A stretch of 64,000 nucleotides of DNA from an uncultured Pseudomonadales bacterium. GTDB lineage: Bacteria; Pseudomonadota; Gammaproteobacteria; Pseudomonadales; Azotimanducaceae. The stretch spans positions 868,001-932,000 of the forward strand of contig OY282455.1 of NCBI GenBank assembly GCA_958296195.1, given 5' to 3'. A program made the position numbers and the translations under genes. Below are positions 57,159 to 64,000 of this stretch, in pieces. Within the stretch, counting starts at the first letter, position 1, and each line of letters begins with the position of its first letter. A model generated the notes under the pieces. That model saw nothing but the letters and a program-made list of their open reading frames with translations. It searched no databases and was not told the DNA's origin.

Positions 57159-57815
57159 ATGCAAATAAAGGGACTGCGTTGGTTCGTTGTCGGGCTCGTC
57201 GCCATTGCCACGGTCATCAATTATGTGGACCGAAACGCGCTAGCCGTCATGTGGCCGAGCATTTCGGAAGAATTGGGCATGGACAAGAACGATTACGCAC
57301 TCATTCTGACCTTCTTCATGGTTGGATATGCGTTTGGCCAATCGCTCTTCGGCAAAATTTTCGACGCCATCGGAACCCGCGTCGGCTTCGTTCTCGCCAT
57401 TGCGGTTTGGTCGGTGGCCATCGCGCTGCATGCGGCGGTGCGCAGCGTCTTGGCTTTCGGCATCGTCCGTTTCAGCCTAGCCGTGGGAGAGGCGGGCAAC
57501 TGGCCCGGCGCGACCAAGGCGAACGCCGAGTGGTTTCCCATCAACGAACGCGCCTTGGCGCAGGGAATCTTCAACGCCGGCGCATCCATTGGCGCGGTGG
57601 TGTCGGCACCCCTGATCGCGCTGTTGTATATCGCGCTGGGCTGGAAGGCCACGTTTCTGGCGATAGGCGGATTGGGTGTTCTCTGGGTAATCCCCTGGCT
57701 GGCCCTGTATCGGGGCAACCCGGACTCGCATCCCTGGCTCAGCGAGATAGCCGTTCGTAATTTTTCGGCATTTTTGGCCGTTTTCCGCCTAGTCCGAAAA
57801 CCCGAATTTCCTTAA
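57159..57815 (+). pseudogene. MFS transporter, truncated (sugar acid carrier)
   Basis: The reading starts as a normal MFS carrier of the hexuronate/ACS type: INYVDRNALAVMWPSISEEL, then GYAFGQSLFGKIFDAIGTRV and SLAVGEAGNWPGATKANAEW. The typical loop LYRGNPDSHPWLSE ends near 57746. After that the frame runs only about 22 residues of unrelated sequence to a stop. Only six TM helices remain of about twelve. The C-terminal half is not found in the window. The carrier, which would import unsaturated uronates, should be non-functional. Confidence 0.85.
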
Positions 57816-57826
57816 AAATCAATCCC

Positions 57827-57856
57827 TTGTCAAATTGGCGCCTTGGGGGTTAGAAT
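57827..57856 (+). promoter_or_regulatory. Promoter of the three-gene unit
   Basis: TTGTCA (57827-57832) and TAGAAT (57851-57856) are 18 bp apart, about 30 bp before the ATG at 57886. The GAGGGG at 57871-57876 is the ribosome binding site. The unit therefore carries its own expression signals. Confidence 0.6.
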
Positions 57857-57885
57857 GCCGGCTTTCCACCGAGGGGCTGCTCCGC

Positions 57886-59745
57886 ATGGCCAATTTGGCG
57901 CTGAATGCGCGTTCCGACGAGGACGTGCTGCCGCTGGCTCCGGTGCATTTGCCGGAGTTCGGCCAGTTGGTCAGTTGGCTGATGTGCCGCAATCCGATGT
58001 GCACAAGCTTCGGGATTCCCTTTGACGGCCCCCTGCCCGGCAGTTGGGGCCGGAGCGTCGGCGACGTCCGTTGCCGGGTGGACTTGGTCAAGCCGCAGTT
58101 CCGGTGCCGGGCCTGCGGGCACTCCTTCCTGCCGCCCTCCAATGCGGGCATCCGCATTTTGGCGAGGCGCTTCCTGGCGCAGAGCCTGCCGTTCGCGGAC
58201 TGCCCGGACGAGGGCTGCGGGAACCATGGGTGGAGCGTGTTCGAGCATTGGGTGCCGACCGGCGGCGTTCGCCGGCGGCGCTACCGGAGCAACGGGCGTT
58301 GGGAGGTGGTTTGCCGGGACTGCGGGAGTCGGTTCAGCCTGGGCGAGCCGCTTCGCCTGCACTCCGTTGCGAAGGGGGACGGGCGCCGGCGGCCGGTCAA
58401 GCGGCTGGCGGGGGATGCCGTTGAAGTGGCCATGCTGGCGAAGTCGCTGCGCCAGGGGCTTCACGCCAAGGGGCTTGGTGAGGGCGCGTACTACGCCTGC
58501 TTGAAGCAGGTGGCGGCCCGGGTCAGGGACAACCTTGCGTGGCGGGCGGCTGCTCTGCTCCATCCCCGCTTTGCGAGCGTCGGGGAGCCGGTGCGCGTTC
58601 AGACGGACGTTCTGGATGTTTCGCTCAAGCGGCTTGGGCGGGGGCCTCGGCACCAGCTGCTTAAGCTGATCGTTTCGGTGGTGGCCCTGCCGCGGGACCG
58701 GACGTGGTTCATTCTGGCGGCGCATCCGGCGTTCCTGCCGGAGTCCCTGTGCCCCGACTTTCTTGAACTGCAGGAGGACCAGCAGCGCCATCGCCTTGCG
58801 CGGCGGTGGGACTTCCTGGCGCACGGCCTGCAGGTGGACAACTCCCGCGGCTCGAGGCATGCGCTGGCCGCCCTGCCCGACGTCAGCCGCAAGGGGCTTT
58901 TCGTCCACTCCCCGCATGCGGAGTTGGCGCACTTTCTGGTTGTGCGGCGGATGCTGTTCCGCTTCCCTTCGGTTCACCACTGCATGGACGGCGACCGGTC
59001 GCTTCGGGCGGCGGCGCTGACCGCGCTCGCCGGGGACGTCCGCTCCGGGCGCGTGGAGATCGCGCTGTTCCAGCACCGGAAGAAGGACGCGGGCGTTCGG
59101 GGCCGCTCGGTTCGGCGGGAGACGGACCTGGACCGGCTGGCGCGGAGCCTTGACGCCGCCCGGCGGGACATGGAGGGCCGTTTCGAGGAGAGGCTGGCGG
59201 GCCGGGGGAGTCCGCAGTCCCTGCTGGTCGAGCCCGACTGTCAGGCCCGCGCCAAGGTTTTCCGGAGCGCGTTCAAGGGGGCGCATTCGGAGAGCGGCGG
59301 TTGGGCCTGGCTGGACCATCCGGCGGGTCTGGGCCAGTACGTCGAGCCGCGCGCGCTTTGGCTGACCGAGGGGCCGGGCAAAGGCTGGGAGGCGGGGCGC
59401 GGCCTGATGCTGCATGCGACGCTGCAGGCGGTCGACTCGGCCTTCAACTCCATGCGGGAGCGGGTTCGGGCGCTGGGCCGTCCTGAGTTCCGCGCCGCGC
59501 CCGGCCGCGGCTACCGCGCCAGCAGCTTTGACGTCGATGCGGTCATGGCGGAGGTTCTGCTGTACCTTCTGGCCCGCAACTACGCCTCGGGCGCCTACTC
59601 CAAGGCCGCCTCCATGCTGCCGGCGCAGGCCATGGGGATCATGCCGCGCAAGGCCCGCGAGCCGGACGTTCTGGAGGTGGCGTGGACCTTCCGGCTGGGG
59701 CTGGAGCACGCCGGGAGGCTGAGCGGATGGCTGGCGCGCAAGTGA
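57886..59745 (+). CDS. Two-zinc-ribbon protein with a possible DDE transposase core
   Basis: The product is 619 aa. Two zinc ribbons lie in tandem: C34/C39 with C74/C77 (FRCRACGHSF), and C106/C111 (CPDEGCGNHG) with C143/C146 (VVCRDCGSRF). This style occurs at the N-termini of IS1-like and related transposases. A helical region follows (about 165-220). Strand-like segments then carry D241 (VQTDVLDVSL), D368/D370 (HCMDGDRSL) and, in a helix VDSAFNSMRERVRALG, D517/E525. This order would suit an RNase H-fold DDE triad, but the assignment is only visual. The ATG at 57886 follows GAGGGG. It overlaps the next gene by 19 bp. Confidence 0.75.
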   Translation: MANLALNARSDEDVLPLAPVHLPEFGQLVSWLMCRNPMCTSFGIPFDGPLPGSWGRSVGDVRCRVDLVKPQFRCRACGHSFLPPSNAGIRILARRFLAQSLPFADCPDEGCGNHGWSVFEHWVPTGGVRRRRYRSNGRWEVVCRDCGSRFSLGEPLRLHSVAKGDGRRRPVKRLAGDAVEVAMLAKSLRQGLHAKGLGEGAYYACLKQVAARVRDNLAWRAAALLHPRFASVGEPVRVQTDVLDVSLKRLGRGPRHQLLKLIVSVVALPRDRTWFILAAHPAFLPESLCPDFLELQEDQQRHRLARRWDFLAHGLQVDNSRGSRHALAALPDVSRKGLFVHSPHAELAHFLVVRRMLFRFPSVHHCMDGDRSLRAAALTALAGDVRSGRVEIALFQHRKKDAGVRGRSVRRETDLDRLARSLDAARRDMEGRFEERLAGRGSPQSLLVEPDCQARAKVFRSAFKGAHSESGGWAWLDHPAGLGQYVEPRALWLTEGPGKGWEAGRGLMLHATLQAVDSAFNSMRERVRALGRPEFRAAPGRGYRASSFDVDAVMAEVLLYLLARNYASGAYSKAASMLPAQAMGIMPRKAREPDVLEVAWTFRLGLEHAGRLSGWLARK

Positions 59746-60545
59746 GCGGCGGGCATCCGCTGGCCCGGGCGTTCGCGGACTTCCATCTACTGCCGGACCT
59801 GCTGGCGGCGGTGGAGCGGCGTGCAAGGCTGGCGGAGGTGCTGAAGTCGGGGGGCTGCAGCCTGGACCATGTGGAGGACGGCGACATGCCCGGCGGCTCG
59901 GTCTCCGTCCACGATTGGATGGCGAGGGACGCCGCAAGGCTTGCGGCGCGGTTGGGCCTGGTTGAAGTGGTTCGGAATGAGAGGGGCGCCGCCCGGATCA
60001 GCGGGCTGACCGATGCCGGGCGGCTGATGGCTGGAATCGCCGAGCGCCCGCCGCATGCTCGAACAACGGCGGACGCGGAGGCCGTGCGGGCTTTGCTGGA
60101 AAGGCAAGTCCGCGCTTTCCATCTGGGAAGGGACGGCGCCTCCGTTGTCGACCTGCTTGTTGAGGGCGCGGGGGTGCTGGCCGAGACATCCCATGTGTGG
60201 GCGGGCTACTGCCCGGGCCTGCTGCTGGCGGAGTTGGACGCGCTGGCGCACGAGGCGACCGCCGAAGGCGGCGATCCGAAGGGGCTGCTGGATCAACTGG
60301 TGCATAACCGGGACTACGCCATGCACGCCCACGGCATGCCGTCGCCCGACGTGGATCCTGTTGGGAACCTTCTGGCGCATGCGGACGCGGTGACGCACTT
60401 CTACCTGCACGACCTGGAGTACGACCAGCGCTCCGCCGCCACGGTGACGGGGCTTCGGGCCACGGCCATGCTGCTGGAGTGCGCCGGGCTGCTGGCGCAG
60501 GGCGCTCCGCTCGGCCCCGTTCAGTACCTGGCGCCGGCGGCGTAG
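59727..60545 (+). CDS. Winged-helix-like protein of the three-gene unit
   Basis: The 272-aa product starts inside the 3' end of the preceding gene. Residues about 50-105 (SVSVHDWMARDAARLAARLG, then a hairpin and ISGLTDAGRLMAGI) look like a winged-helix domain for DNA binding. The second half is helical and contains LLDQLVHNRDYAMHAHGMPS, which I cannot assign. The overlap shows translational coupling, so it probably acts in a complex with the zinc-ribbon protein. Confidence 0.7.
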   Translation: MAGAQVSGGHPLARAFADFHLLPDLLAAVERRARLAEVLKSGGCSLDHVEDGDMPGGSVSVHDWMARDAARLAARLGLVEVVRNERGAARISGLTDAGRLMAGIAERPPHARTTADAEAVRALLERQVRAFHLGRDGASVVDLLVEGAGVLAETSHVWAGYCPGLLLAELDALAHEATAEGGDPKGLLDQLVHNRDYAMHAHGMPSPDVDPVGNLLAHADAVTHFYLHDLEYDQRSAATVTGLRATAMLLECAGLLAQGAPLGPVQYLAPAA

Positions 60546-60550
60546 CGGGC

Positions 60551-61456
60551 ATGCTGGAGCCGCCCATTGCCGTCACCCTCCCCAACGACCGCGGCTGGCG
60601 GCCCAAGCTCGGCGCGCCGGCGGTCAGTGCGCTGCTGCAGCGCATGGCGGCGCAGGACGTAGTCGCCGTCAGCCGCACCGTGTTCAAGGCGCTGGGCCTG
60701 CCCGGCCGTCCCGAGCTCGCCAAGCGCCTGGCGTCGGAGGCGCCGAAGGAGGACGCCCAGGCGTTGAAGCTGAAGCACTACCGCTGGATCAACCGGGCGC
60801 TGTCGATGGAGCTGCTGGCCTCGCTGCTCCTGTCGCACCTGAACCGGGCCGAGCGGGTGCGGAGCTTCTGCATGGCCGATGGGGACCGTCCGCACTACTT
60901 CGCCGGCTCAGGCCGGCCGGACCTGCTCGCCGACTATCCGGCGTCCGGCGATGCGTCGGCGTTCCGGGTGCTCGGCGAGGTCAGCGCCCTGCGGGAGATG
61001 GCGCCCGAGCGGCATCTTGAGCAGCTTGAGCAGGCGCTGCGGCACGCCAAAAGCGAACTGGAGAAAAAACCGGACTCGCCCGTCATCGCCTGGGTGGTCA
61101 ACAACGGCGACGTCGGCTCGGATCCCGTGCTGAGGCGGCAGTACCAGAAGTTCGTGCGGGACAACGGGCTGCTGGAGGAGGGCTGCGGCATCACGGTGGC
61201 GCCGATGCACACTGCGGACGCGGCCCATGCGCTCGCCCTGCTGTGCTCGGAGCCGCCGGCGGGGGGCTTGAGGTTCCCAAGCGGCGGGCTGGCCGTCGCC
61301 CTGTGCGAAATGGCGGACCGGCTGGCGGGGGATGACCCGCCGGGGGCTGAGGGCTGGATGGCCCAGCTGTTTGTGCAAAGCGTTGGCGGCCAAGCCTCCC
61401 TGCTGCCGCCCGACCCGCCAAGCGACGACGATGACGGCCCGCCGGGGACGAGGTAG
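60551..61456 (+). CDS. PD-(D/E)xK-like nuclease candidate of the three-gene unit
   Basis: The 301-aa product starts 5 bp after the previous stop. The central part reads GRPDLLADYPASG and then FRVLGEVSALREM, which gives D124 and D127, a 15-residue gap, and E143-V-S145. This resembles the PD-(D/E)xK nuclease motif, except that Ser stands where Lys is usual, so activity is not certain. The C-terminus ends in an acidic Pro-rich tail (PPDPPSDDDDGPPG). A nuclease next to a DDE-like protein recalls the TnsA/TnsB division in Tn7-type elements, but no sequence relation is claimed. Confidence 0.65.
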   Translation: MLEPPIAVTLPNDRGWRPKLGAPAVSALLQRMAAQDVVAVSRTVFKALGLPGRPELAKRLASEAPKEDAQALKLKHYRWINRALSMELLASLLLSHLNRAERVRSFCMADGDRPHYFAGSGRPDLLADYPASGDASAFRVLGEVSALREMAPERHLEQLEQALRHAKSELEKKPDSPVIAWVVNNGDVGSDPVLRRQYQKFVRDNGLLEEGCGITVAPMHTADAAHALALLCSEPPAGGLRFPSGGLAVALCEMADRLAGDDPPGAEGWMAQLFVQSVGGQASLLPPDPPSDDDDGPPGTR

Positions 61457-61491
61457 CGAAGCGCTGCGCAACGGCGAAGCCCCCGCTCCGC

Positions 61492-61851
61492 TCATTGGGC
61501 TAGTTGCTCGAACGCCTGCTTGAGCAGCAGCGCCGCGGCGGCCTTCACCGTCTCCATGGATGCGGACTCGCCCTTGGACGCGATGAGCTGCTTGACCTTC
61601 TCCCACTTGCCTTTGTCCCTAACGCTATCCAAGTATTCGCATCCGGCCCATGTCAGCCTAGGCTGCATCCAAAGCGGTGGGTCGCCAGCCTCATTCATTG
61701 GAAATTCACTGAAGGGGCTGTCGATGAAGCGGGCGTCCTTCAAAAGCAGCAAATGATGAGCTTCAGTGGACCCGTGTTCGGCTTGGATCTGGTCCTCACC
61801 TAATTCGATCCGCATCAGCAGTTCCCGCACAGTGTCCATGTCCCGTTTCAC
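61492..61851 (-). CDS. DUF2513 family protein
   Basis: The 119-aa product begins KRDMDTVRELLMRIE and has HHLLLLKDARFID and a RLTWAGCEYLDSVRDKGKWE run, the pattern of DUF2513 proteins common in phages and mobile islands. I choose the GTG at 61851 because the family starts with MKRDM and a GGAG lies eight bases upstream. Its stop is 36 bp from the end of the nuclease-like gene, in convergent orientation. Function unknown; a winged-helix fold is likely. Confidence 0.82.
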   Translation of the reverse strand: MKRDMDTVRELLMRIELGEDQIQAEHGSTEAHHLLLLKDARFIDSPFSEFPMNEAGDPPLWMQPRLTWAGCEYLDSVRDKGKWEKVKQLIASKGESASMETVKAAAALLLKQAFEQLAQ

Positions 61852-62348
61852 GTCAAGCGCTCCATAGGTGGTGGCATGGGCACTGCGCAACGCATCCCTA
61901 AGCTCCGTTGCGTGTCATTAGCCGCCCGCGCTGACGCTGCCGCGGGTCATCCTTCGGGCAGCCCCCTGGTGGAGAGGCGGTTGAACCCATCCTGAAGGGC
62001 GGTTCGGTGGGCGCGCCGGAGGGAGGGCGGGCCAGGAAACCGCCCAACCCTCCATCGGTCAGGAGCGCTGGCCGGCTGCGTTCCTTGCTCATGCATTGAT
62101 TGTATTCGATTCCAGGGCGCTGGAAAGAGAGACTGCCGAGTTCGGAATCCTGCTGGCGTAAGCGGTCGGGCTCCGCGCCGCCACCGCTCCAACCTCCTCC
62201 CCCGCATCAGTCTCCGTTCGCGGGTTCAATCGGAAACCGGCATAACTGCACAAAAACAAATCTTCGTCAAACGCTTGGGCGATGGTCCCGCCGACTTTTT
62301 CCGCCCCTCCACTTGGCGTCCAGAACTGGCTTAATGTACAGTGTCCCT
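61852..62348. other. Intergenic region holding repeat copy A
   Basis: About 500 bp without a convincing gene. A minus-strand frame at 61898-62092 with a proline-rich translation (FLARPPSGAPTEPPFRMGST) is probably repeat sequence and not a gene. The rest shows nothing I can assign. Confidence 0.45.
61909..61993. repeat. Dispersed direct repeat, copy A
   Basis: This stretch aligns with copy B at about 62774-62860 in the same orientation. The shared core includes GGGTCATCCTTCGGGCAGCC and GGCGGTTGAACCC. Identity is high in the core and fades at the edges. Confidence 0.75.
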
Positions 62349-62687
62349 ATGACCGGCCTAGCTTTGCTGCGGCGCCTCAACTATCGGCGCATTGCCCTCA
62401 CTGACGGCGAGAAGCGCGAAGACGTGGGCGTGATGCTGCCCAGCGGCGAGGTGCGGATCGTCCGCTGGCTGGGCTTCATCGAGCGCCGTGAAGCCCGATG
62501 CGCACCCGGCGCCAAGCCGGTTCGGCTGGCCGACATCGCCGCCGTGGGGCGGGGAGACGGCGCAAGCCCTGCATGGCGGAGCCTCAAGCCGGACGAGTTC
62601 GTTCACGGGTGCCTGACGGCCGACGGGGCCTGGGCGGTTTACGATGCGGAGGTGGCGATTGTGGGTCCCCGGAGCGAAAGCCAATGA
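62349..62687 (+). CDS. Hypothetical protein
   Basis: The 112-aa product starts MTGLALLRRLNYRRIALTDG and continues KREDVGVMLPSGEVRIVRW, RLADIAAVGRGDG and a C-terminal GAWAVYDAEVAIVGP. It is a small beta-rich soluble protein without signal peptide or TM helix. An in-frame ATG at 62334 is an alternative start. No family recognised. It lies between the two repeat copies. Confidence 0.55.
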   Translation: MTGLALLRRLNYRRIALTDGEKREDVGVMLPSGEVRIVRWLGFIERREARCAPGAKPVRLADIAAVGRGDGASPAWRSLKPDEFVHGCLTADGAWAVYDAEVAIVGPRSESQ

Positions 62688-63113
62688 GCTTCGACCGGAC
62701 CTCAAGGAACGCCGGGGTGAAGCTGTCGGGGTGCGGACTGCTGGGCGACGACTGCCATCCCTAAGCCCCGCTGTATGTCAATGTTCGTCCGCTTTGACGC
62801 TGTCGTGGGTCATCCTTCGGGCAGCCACTTGGTGGATAGGCGGTTGAACCCGTCTTGGGGGCAACAGCGGTTTCCTCGTTCACTGGCGGAGTAAGCTATT
62901 CATCGCGCTTGTTGCCATCGGTCGACTGCACGGCACAACTGCCGTCCGGCAGCTTCATCGGTCTCATGTGGTGGTCGAAAGTCCGTTCGACCAGAAAAGT
63001 GCCGGTGCGCGTACTGGACGGAGTGTTCGATGCTATTGCTTGAACGCCTGTTGCGACTATGATGCTGGCCTGGCGTCAACATTGCGCCATGCGAAAAAGA
63101 AAGGGAATGCCCG
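62688..63113. other. Intergenic region holding repeat copy B
   Basis: About 430 bp. Repeat copy B lies at about 62774-62860. I see no supported gene in the remainder; GC content falls toward the low-GC gene on the right. Confidence 0.45.
62774..62860. repeat. Dispersed direct repeat, copy B
   Basis: This is the partner of copy A. It keeps GGGTCATCCTTCGGGCAGCC and GGCGGTTGAACCC with several substitutions between. The two copies enclose about 780 bp that contain the small hypothetical gene. Confidence 0.75.
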
Positions 63114-63971
63114 CTAATCTGCAAATTCCCAATCGCTTGGCGGGCTGATCCATAGTGAATTTGACTTTAGCAATTGGAATTTACCTCTTGTATAACATAC
63201 TCTGTGAACCTCTAATTCGCCCTCCCCTGAATCCCTCCAAGCATGTATGCGATAAATGCGCAAGGTGCATAAGAGAGGACGTCCATGATCTGGGGGGATA
63301 ATTCCAAAATCATTGAGCAGTGCTCGTTCTGCCGATTGCTCATCACCGGCCTCTCTCCAGGACCCTTCAAGCCAAAAGTAAAATGCGTTACTATCTTTCC
63401 GTATGCGCAGACCCAAGTTGGGATATCCTGCTCGGATCTTAATGACATCGATAAGGCTCCTGCGTTGCAAAAGAATCTTTTGCCTCTTTTCAGGAATCGC
63501 ATGCTCTGGAACATCATGGCCCTCAATAATGTCAACATAACACCTAAAAGGGTGCGCCAATATCCTTAGATATCGATAGAAGTTAATCAACTCCCTAAAA
63601 AAGCTATAAATTGCATTCTTATGATGGCTGATGTATAATCCGCCATTTGGCTCATCTGCTATGGAGCGTGTGATTCTGTTCTTACTCCAAATTAGAATAG
63701 CAAGCGCCACTCCCAATAAAGGCGTGAGGTGTTCACTGCATCCGCGAACTGTAATAAACAAATAGTATGCGGCATAAGAGCTACAACACCAAATCGTGAA
63801 AAGCAGCAATGCATACCACCTGCCATCCCAATATCTCAACAGCCCCACACAATCCATAGCTATTTGCACACTCCTCCTTTTTAGCACCGCATATATTCTT
63901 ATGTATCTGGAGCGGACACATCTTAGCAGCCACTCGATATAGAGGTACGGTTTCCTTAATTCAATTTTCAT
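63114..63971 (-). CDS. Low-GC membrane protein of unknown function
   Basis: The 285-aa product has a basic N-terminus, two TM helices near residues 50-75 (WYALLLFTIWCCSSYAAYYL) and 80-97 (LTPLLGVALAILIW), and a soluble C-terminal half with WLEGSWREAGDEQSAERALL and LLCTLRIYRIHAWRDSGEGE. The GC content is far below the window average, as expected for recently transferred DNA. No family recognised. Confidence 0.7.
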   Translation of the reverse strand: MKIELRKPYLYIEWLLRCVRSRYIRIYAVLKRRSVQIAMDCVGLLRYWDGRWYALLLFTIWCCSSYAAYYLFITVRGCSEHLTPLLGVALAILIWSKNRITRSIADEPNGGLYISHHKNAIYSFFRELINFYRYLRILAHPFRCYVDIIEGHDVPEHAIPEKRQKILLQRRSLIDVIKIRAGYPNLGLRIRKDSNAFYFWLEGSWREAGDEQSAERALLNDFGIIPPDHGRPLLCTLRIYRIHAWRDSGEGELEVHRVCYTRGKFQLLKSNSLWISPPSDWEFAD

Positions 63972-64000
63972 GCGTATGGCGATTGCTCCCGCAATCCTTT

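Follow-up and report, generated by a model that had tools for sequence, protein, structure and literature searches.

A 30.8-kb transposon with a transposase-like gene near each end interrupts a transporter gene in an uncultured Pseudomonadales bacterium

Structure of the locus

This study concerns a transposon in a stretch of 64,000 nucleotides (hereafter the window) from an uncultured Pseudomonadales bacterium, corresponding to G000:C1:868001-932000 on one 4.31-Mb contig of the source genome, G000. The element interrupts a major facilitator superfamily (MFS) transporter gene with precise ends and a 9-bp duplication, and spans 30,846 bp from window position 57747 to G000:C1:956592, its right end lying outside the window. 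An earlier reading of the same DNA (the original prediction) had placed a three-gene transposon-like unit at 57747..61456. The first of these positions is exactly the first base of the element, while the second is merely the end of gene C; the unit does belong to a transposon, although it is not self-contained but forms the left module of the 30.8-kb element, which has a further transposase-like gene, A', at its far end. The features are as follows (window positions unless a contig is named).

57159..57746, plus strand, 5' part of the MFS transporter gene, host DNA (MFS_1, E 7.1e-35)
57738..57746, left copy of the 9-bp target duplication CTCAGCGAG (right copy at G000:C1:956593-956601)
57747..64000, portion of the element inside the window (continuing to G000:C1:956592)
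57747..57784, plus strand, left terminal inverted repeat, beginning ATAGCCGTTCGTAATTTTTCGGCATTTTTGG (right end at G000:C1:956592)
57827..57856, plus strand, sigma-70-like candidate promoter for A-B-C inside the left end, TTGTCA-18-TAGAAT, a consensus match only
57886..59745, plus strand, gene A, transposase-like, 619 aa, with two zinc ribbons, an IS1-InsA-like ribbon plus helix-turn-helix (HTH), and D241/D368/D517
59727..60545, plus strand, gene B, 272 aa, overlapping A by 19 bp
60551..61456, plus strand, gene C, 301 aa, with a putative AlwI/BspD6I-like PD-(D/E)xK endonuclease domain (D124, E143-V-S145)
61492..61890, minus strand, DUF2513 gene, the first cargo gene (Pfam PF10711, E 6.7e-14)
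G000:C1:954519-956483, minus strand, gene A', transposase-like, 654 aa, 109 bases inside the right end and reading inward

The MFS gene is truly broken, as had been proposed. Its 3' part resumes at G000:C1:956602, 30.8 kb from the 5' half, and removal in silico of the element together with one copy of CTCAGCGAG restores an unbroken frame of 424 codons. This joined frame aligns from end to end with orthologues from G046, G044 and G014, three members of the source genome's family in which the gene is uninterrupted (69.7-74.1% identity). Because the joined frame is intact and the orthologues are uninterrupted, both the insertion and its empty site are directly documented. A fixed chromosomal context lacking empty sites, which would have spoken against a mobile element, is not what we found: contexts vary, the 9-bp duplications are exact and empty sites exist.

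The three genes of the left module are tightly packed, with B overlapping A and C following closely, and they have a promoter-like site of their own, in agreement with the original prediction; this site was found once against 0.2 occurrences expected by shuffling. The start of gene A was taken as the ATG at 57886, the longer open reading frame (ORF) beginning with TTG at 57835.

Gene A and its paralogue A'

Judged by alignment, A is a diverged paralogue of the A' family (hhalign 99.4%, E 3.8e-21, 535 columns), and eight cysteines and three aspartates (D241, D368 and D517) are common to both proteins. Residue conservation was read from a 67-sequence alignment of A with its relatives. The cysteines C34, C39, C74, C77, C106, C111, C143 and C146 are kept in 66-67 of the 67 sequences, and the two tandem C-x4-C/C-x2-C zinc ribbons described earlier are thus real. 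The proposed DDE set survives in part: D241 is invariant (67/67), D368 is nearly so (65/67) and position 370 is occupied by D in 42 sequences and E in 25, but the position of E525 holds R in 60/67, and the third invariant acid is instead D517 (67/67).

Pfam gave just scattered weak matches to short domains across the 67 members, each in no more than five of them, and a profile search of the PDB with the A family returned 147 matches, all 60 among the matches listed being zinc-finger proteins. Relatives of A' occur in 127 of 72,556 plasmid records and in 140 of 192 pattern-matched stretches from a search of 84,980 species genomes (80 among the matches listed). The A' family alignment also matched one viral contig, and one A' relative matched two Staphylococcus phage records. 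As single queries, A, B and C had no match in the plasmid records, A had none in a first scan of genome contigs, and C had none in viral contigs. Enterococcus accounts for 90 of the 127 plasmid records with an A' relative, and a 24%-identical relative, annotated as an 'insertion element protein', lies beside dfrG in that genus (L062:7851-9803).

Genes B and C

Gene B, read as winged-helix-like in the original prediction, had no family match better than E 0.039 in searches of family libraries. It is 30% identical to its counterpart in a second genome, G002, where B is fused to C in a single reading frame, and about 41% identical to two pieces in a third, G097. A B profile run against 369 genomes of the class reached three of them: G000, G533 and, weakly, G735, in which neither A nor C lies on the same contig. 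We took G533 to be the same assembly as G097, because its contig number and hit positions nearly coincide with those of G097:C66.

For gene C, four sequences were compared, one each from the window and G002 and two from G097, one of the latter away from A and B. All four have A-x-x-G-x-x-D...Y...E-x-S...Q...N in common, with D124, E143 and S145 invariant. The D...E-x-S motif of the original prediction is therefore conserved, and its likeness to PD-(D/E)xK nucleases is upheld through distant AlwI/BspD6I homology, although its spacing in the window is D-x18-E-x-S rather than D-x15. The best PDB sequences for the C profile were the restriction and nicking subunits of BspD6I (E 0.34-1.5, weak), in which the catalytic D and E-C-S/E-V-T residues line up with D and E-V-S in C. 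Among 398 genomes of the phylum, the profile matched only one besides G000, namely G342 (E 1.2e-4). The G342 protein is a clear RE_AlwI endonuclease (E 3.6e-53; N.BspD6I 2e-53) and aligns with C over 132 columns (hhalign E 1.1e-4, 57%). Against Pfam RE_AlwI itself, the C of G097:C66 scored 15.8 bits (E 0.0072), under the gathering score of 23.1, while the window C, the G002 B-C fusion and the G097:C18 sequence gave no match. AlwI, R.BspD6I and N.BspD6I have the core A-x-x-G-x-x-D-I...Y..F..L-x-E-V-S/T in common with C; C differs in being without their long N-terminal part and in falling under the Pfam cut-off. On this distant match, C is taken to be the putative catalytic part of an AlwI/BspD6I-type PD-(D/E)xK nuclease; it may also be enzymatically active and act in transposition.

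In the sequence of G097:C18 that lies away from A and B (L187:11-1390), the C-like domain is in frame with an N-terminal part resembling a phage tip protein (FNIII-A_GpJ, E 2.6e-5).

Recurrence of the gene set

A, B and C adjoin a left end together in G000, G002 and G097. In G002 the main pieces of the three proteins are 37%, 30% and 29% identical to those of the window. On contig C66 of G097 a left end is followed by A, B and C, then by type I restriction genes and finally by A', which reaches the contig edge and leaves the right end unseen. Apart from frame breaks in A and A', this is the anatomy of the window element. Across the 97 relatives surveyed, A occurs in three genomes and A' in four. 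C was found in two of nine genomes of the genus, and A' in four of 206 genomes of the family, G971 among them.

Element ends and short derivatives

Ends sharing the core TAGCCGTTC number in the dozens in G000 and a further genome, G001. They fall into at least four sequence subtypes, and exact 9-bp duplications flank many of the pairs. In G000, short elements of the window subtype retain left-end stretches of 36 to about 340 bases, which often extend into A, and right-end stretches of about 90-270 bases, which reach into A' when longer than 109 bases. Statistics were drawn from 93 ends in the fetched stretches, of which a few probably match the pattern by chance. Near 34 of the ends there is coding sequence of A or A', and near 59 of neither. 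Among ends with a terminal A, 22 have A nearby and two have A'; among those with a terminal C, nine have A' and one has A (Fisher p 9.7e-6, on the assumption of independent copies, which does not fully hold). A strict rule fixing the terminal base to the end type was nonetheless given up as just mostly true, since 3/34 labelled ends break it; one end label rests on a marginal 17-residue match. We also rejected the idea that ends have diverged more in two-transposase elements, the left/right identity over 40 bp being 0.72 in both groups (16 and 18 elements).

Target sites

The single-gene relatives of A' prefer a particular kind of site. Inverted ends were sought at 61 relative loci, and the 31 with a convincing pair were retained. 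A 9-bp duplication is present in 29 of these, one of the others having no duplication and one no right flank. Centred on the duplication, 21 of these 29 sites have a stem-loop whose net score is 6 or more, against 2-5 at the remaining eight; among 5,800 control windows drawn from these loci, 1.7% score as high. In 17 of the 21 the stem is also preceded by four A and followed by four T, as in intrinsic terminators. None of 11 sites of two-transposase elements reaches the hairpin score (range 1-4), the right flank at some of these array sites being the next element. Members of the family thus differ in their choice of target, and this difference tracks with A-B-C; A, B or C may be what causes the shift. 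The terminator preference is useful in its own right and seems worth separate study. Relatives at L106, L109, L116, L131, L132, L162, L168 and other loci sit in the loop of terminator-like hairpins.

For the two-transposase elements, 44 left-type ends were surveyed in fetched stretches of G000, G001 and G002. Nine are at the 3' end of a tRNA gene, 17 directly behind the right end of another element and 18 elsewhere. By ARAGORN, eight of the nine target genes encode tRNA-Ser (anticodons gga, gct, tga and cga) and one tRNA-Asp. At seven of these nine sites the last base of the tRNA gene is the first A of the element, and the CCA end of the tRNA is therefore kept; at the other two there is a gap of four or five bases. 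Between the stacked elements lie the bases CTCTCCGCC, CCCTCCGCC or CGCTCCGCC (one shifted by a base), although not every array among the 17 stacked ends was traced back to a tRNA gene. Two of the 18 ends elsewhere resemble array members, and two are probably chance pattern hits.

Sites away from tRNA genes were scored with a matrix of the tRNA sites (four distinct sequences) against 200,000 random windows from the same stretches. The MFS site of the window fits this matrix (p 8e-5), as do its upstream 17 bases alone (p 1.9e-4). These 17 bp agree with the T-arm side of the tRNA target, and the MFS insertion site is best seen as a look-alike of that target (actCGCATCCCTggCTCAGCG versus gttCGAATCCCTccCTCTCCG). 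Other off-tRNA sites with a proven duplication gave p 0.0017 (4114769), 0.006 (1869328) and 0.034 (2987020 in G001), and among 13 other off-tRNA ends, 2920861 (p 1.5e-4) and 1773757 (p 0.007) fit the matrix.

Three further observations touch on these targets. At G001:C1:689628-689704 (L093:2629-2705), one array starts at the tRNA-Asp(GTC) gene, whose 3' end, CGCTCCGCCA, is close to that of tRNA-Ser. A tRNA-Ser(GCT) gene lies inside the window element itself (G000:C1:946409-946497; L033:6409-6497), with element ends at 946356 and 946502, and is possibly a portable landing site. Lastly, at G000:C1:418498 and G001:C1:1773757 an element occupies the same non-tRNA sequence, ggtctgcctcccttccgcc, at which Rfam named no RNA family.

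A proposed mechanism and its alternatives

Taken together, we read A-B-C as the left module of a two-transposase transposon, with C playing a TnsA-like part and insertion retargeted to tRNA 3' ends, and give this reading a probability of about 0.6. The division of labour among the four proteins could be as follows. With A just inside the left end and A' just inside the right, both facing inward and with the cargo between them, a mixed complex of A and A' would pair the ends and join them, with a stagger of 9 bp, to the target. A', perhaps together with A, would perform end cleavage and strand transfer, and C, with B as an adaptor, could cut the other strand as TnsA does in Tn7, leading to cut-and-paste movement of a long cargo. 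A-B-C would recognise the tRNA end, target choice having moved from terminator hairpins to tRNA 3' ends, nearly all of them of tRNA-Ser. Because the tRNA end is kept, insertion could repeat there and stack elements into arrays of defence and toxin-antitoxin genes. A stricter version, in which the transposases form an obligate pair with one per end, C is an AlwI-derived nicking nuclease with B as its partner, and the gain of A-B-C moved the family off terminator hairpins and onto tRNA 3' ends in a sequence-specific way, would make this a distinct kind of mobile DNA, its tandem stacks of defence and toxin-antitoxin genes being a transposase-made counterpart of integron cassette arrays; it is more tentative and in our judgement falls somewhat short of even odds.

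Several findings weigh against the proposal of a two-transposase transposon. First, two near-invariant residues of the family are lost from A: E485, kept in 64/67 sequences, has become Y in the A of G000 and of G097 and H in that of G002, and E531, kept in 61/67, has become G in G000 and R in G002. Owing to these losses A may be inactive. Second, A is frame-broken in G002 and both A and A' are frame-broken in G097; the G002 contig stops before any right end, and all four genes are unbroken in G000 only. Moreover, G971 has an unbroken A' (57%), and the three contigs read from it contain none of A, B and C. Third, the match of C is weak in each single test (E 0.34 to 1e-4) and below the Pfam cut-off, and the C-like domain of G097:C18 is found away from A and B. 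Finally, the terminal-base rule has its exceptions (1871726, 2560890 and 3344634), one duplication-proven off-tRNA site is unlike a tRNA site (1830261, p 0.75), and so are 11 of the 13 left-type ends without a proven duplication (p 0.06 to 0.95).

The main alternative is that A' is the sole active transposase and A a dead paralogue, which with B and C would serve as a target selector or regulator in a role like that of TnsD/TniQ. A' retains both E485 and E531, as it does every family residue checked, whereas the A proteins have lost these two; the single-gene relatives of A' form elements with ends and duplications of their own, and the change of target accompanies A-B-C. Set against this, all three aspartates (D241, D368, D517) are retained by the A proteins of G000 and G002, and that of G097 retains D241 and D368, its frame break leaving D517 unread. 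We regard a purely regulatory A as unlikely, if still the strongest competitor. Slightly less likely again is that B and C play no part in movement and are carried as cargo, as a restriction or defence pair might be. This would suit the likeness of C to a restriction endonuclease, the defence genes found in the elements and the occurrence of a C-like domain apart from A and B. However, B overlaps A with C immediately after it, and both adjoin A at the left end in G000, G002 and G097, while much other cargo varies among these genomes. That two independent insertion sequences, A-B-C and A', came to flank the cargo by chance is very improbable. A and A' are diverged and single-gene A' relatives are elements of their own, but no full inverted-repeat end occurs within 1.2 kb after C or within 1.2 kb inside A' (the nearest end inward of A', 953305, has the orientation of the right end), and the large element is therefore not a pair of separate insertion sequences. 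The short derivatives, moreover, retain the start of A at one terminus and the A' side at the opposite one, and the same arrangement recurs in G097.

Should the two-transposase reading be correct, the element would be a second, independent answer to the problem that Tn7 solves, namely how to deliver a large cargo to a fixed place where it does no harm, and would rest on an IS1-like transposase family left unnamed by a Pfam scan. It would illustrate a change of target site within one family by means of a duplicated transposase and a nuclease, and tRNA-anchored defence islands could grow cassette by cassette without an integrase.

Comparison with known systems

One comparable system is the IS1 family. 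The second zinc ribbon and HTH of the A' family align with E. coli InsA (hhalign 95.1%, E 2.9e-8, 71 columns), and the target duplication of IS1 is 9 bp, as in the present element. InsB, the catalytic protein of IS1, gave no significant alignment with the A' family (hhalign 0.3%), and the stretch around D517 resembles IERHNLNLRQHLARLGRKS of InsB by eye only. The NCBIfam model of IS1, NF033558 (cut-off 100 bits), gave 25.9-45.5 bits in five of six proteins and nothing for A'; at E up to 0.01 it matches 66 of the 67 alignment members, window A being the exception. The systems differ in that the IS1 transposase has about 230 aa against about 620-650 aa for A and A', and that IS1 lacks a counterpart of the second transposase gene, of B and C, and of the large cargo.

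Also comparable are the single-gene elements of the A' family, annotated as 'insertion element protein' and found, for example, on plasmids of Acidovorax, P. aeruginosa, Marinobacter and Enterococcus. Their transposase is homologous and has the conserved Cys and Asp set, many have AGCCGTT-type ends, and they make 9-bp duplications; unlike the window element, they have one transposase gene, measure 1.9-5.9 kb and use mostly terminator-like hairpin sites.

Tn7 combines TnsA with TnsB and has a target duplication of 5 bp. The likeness lies in the proposed split between DDE-type strand transfer and a restriction-like nuclease, in safe sites at gene ends and in large cargo, whereas the present element has two paralogous transposase genes and a 9-bp duplication. 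In Pfam, NCBIfam, PADLOC and PHROGs nothing matched A, B or C better than E 0.009, and no homologue of TnsB, TnsC or TniQ/TnsD was found among them; one of the 67 alignment members matches TnsD at 0.0022, and none of the other element ORFs scanned (eight besides A' in NCBIfam, seven in Pfam, the rest being unscanned) is Tn7-like.

A literature search in which subscription journals fell mostly outside the scope found no description of the present element, nor of a terminator-targeting family with an A'-type transposase; absence from print is not claimed. By target type alone the element can be likened to the eukaryotic Dada transposons of animals, which are reported to insert in multicopy small-RNA genes, tRNA genes included (PMC3706591, PMC8869645).

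Cargo and other observations

The cargo of the window element includes a type IIG-like restriction-methylation protein (C1:934663-939753), a SRAP protein and a large protein with weak matches to type IV secretion system (T4SS) coupling proteins and ClpP (C1:940777-943569); no relaxase was found among the proteins scanned. A type I restriction system is carried by the G097 element, and an HKD+Snf2 helicase lies downstream of the left end on the G002 contig, where no right end was seen. Ten proteins from short elements were checked in Pfam. The cargo there comprises a CAP12-type TIR protein, HipA, an AbiEii-like protein, an MNT/HEPN-like pair, a type III system, a DNA methylase, a PIN-like protein and an AAA ATPase, the PIN-like and HEPN matches falling below their cut-offs; by eye, similar ATPase ORFs occur in at least three further elements. 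The DUF2513 gene next to C is unlikely to have a role in transposition.

The ClpP-/coupling-protein-like protein recurs at G002:C148:16761-19502 and G001:C1:3178664-3181411 (42-48% identity). A 456-aa protein at G000:C1:944567-945937 has tandem integrase-type SAM-like repeats (Phage_int_SAM_1, E 9.6e-5) and no recognised catalytic domain. Downstream of the DUF2513 gene, a 102-bp direct repeat, 82% identical, occupies window positions 61893-61994 and 62756-62857. The ORF at 62100-62687 (195 aa), 55% identical along 112 residues to one that neighbours the coupling-protein-like gene of G002:C148, is possibly a core gene of the large elements.

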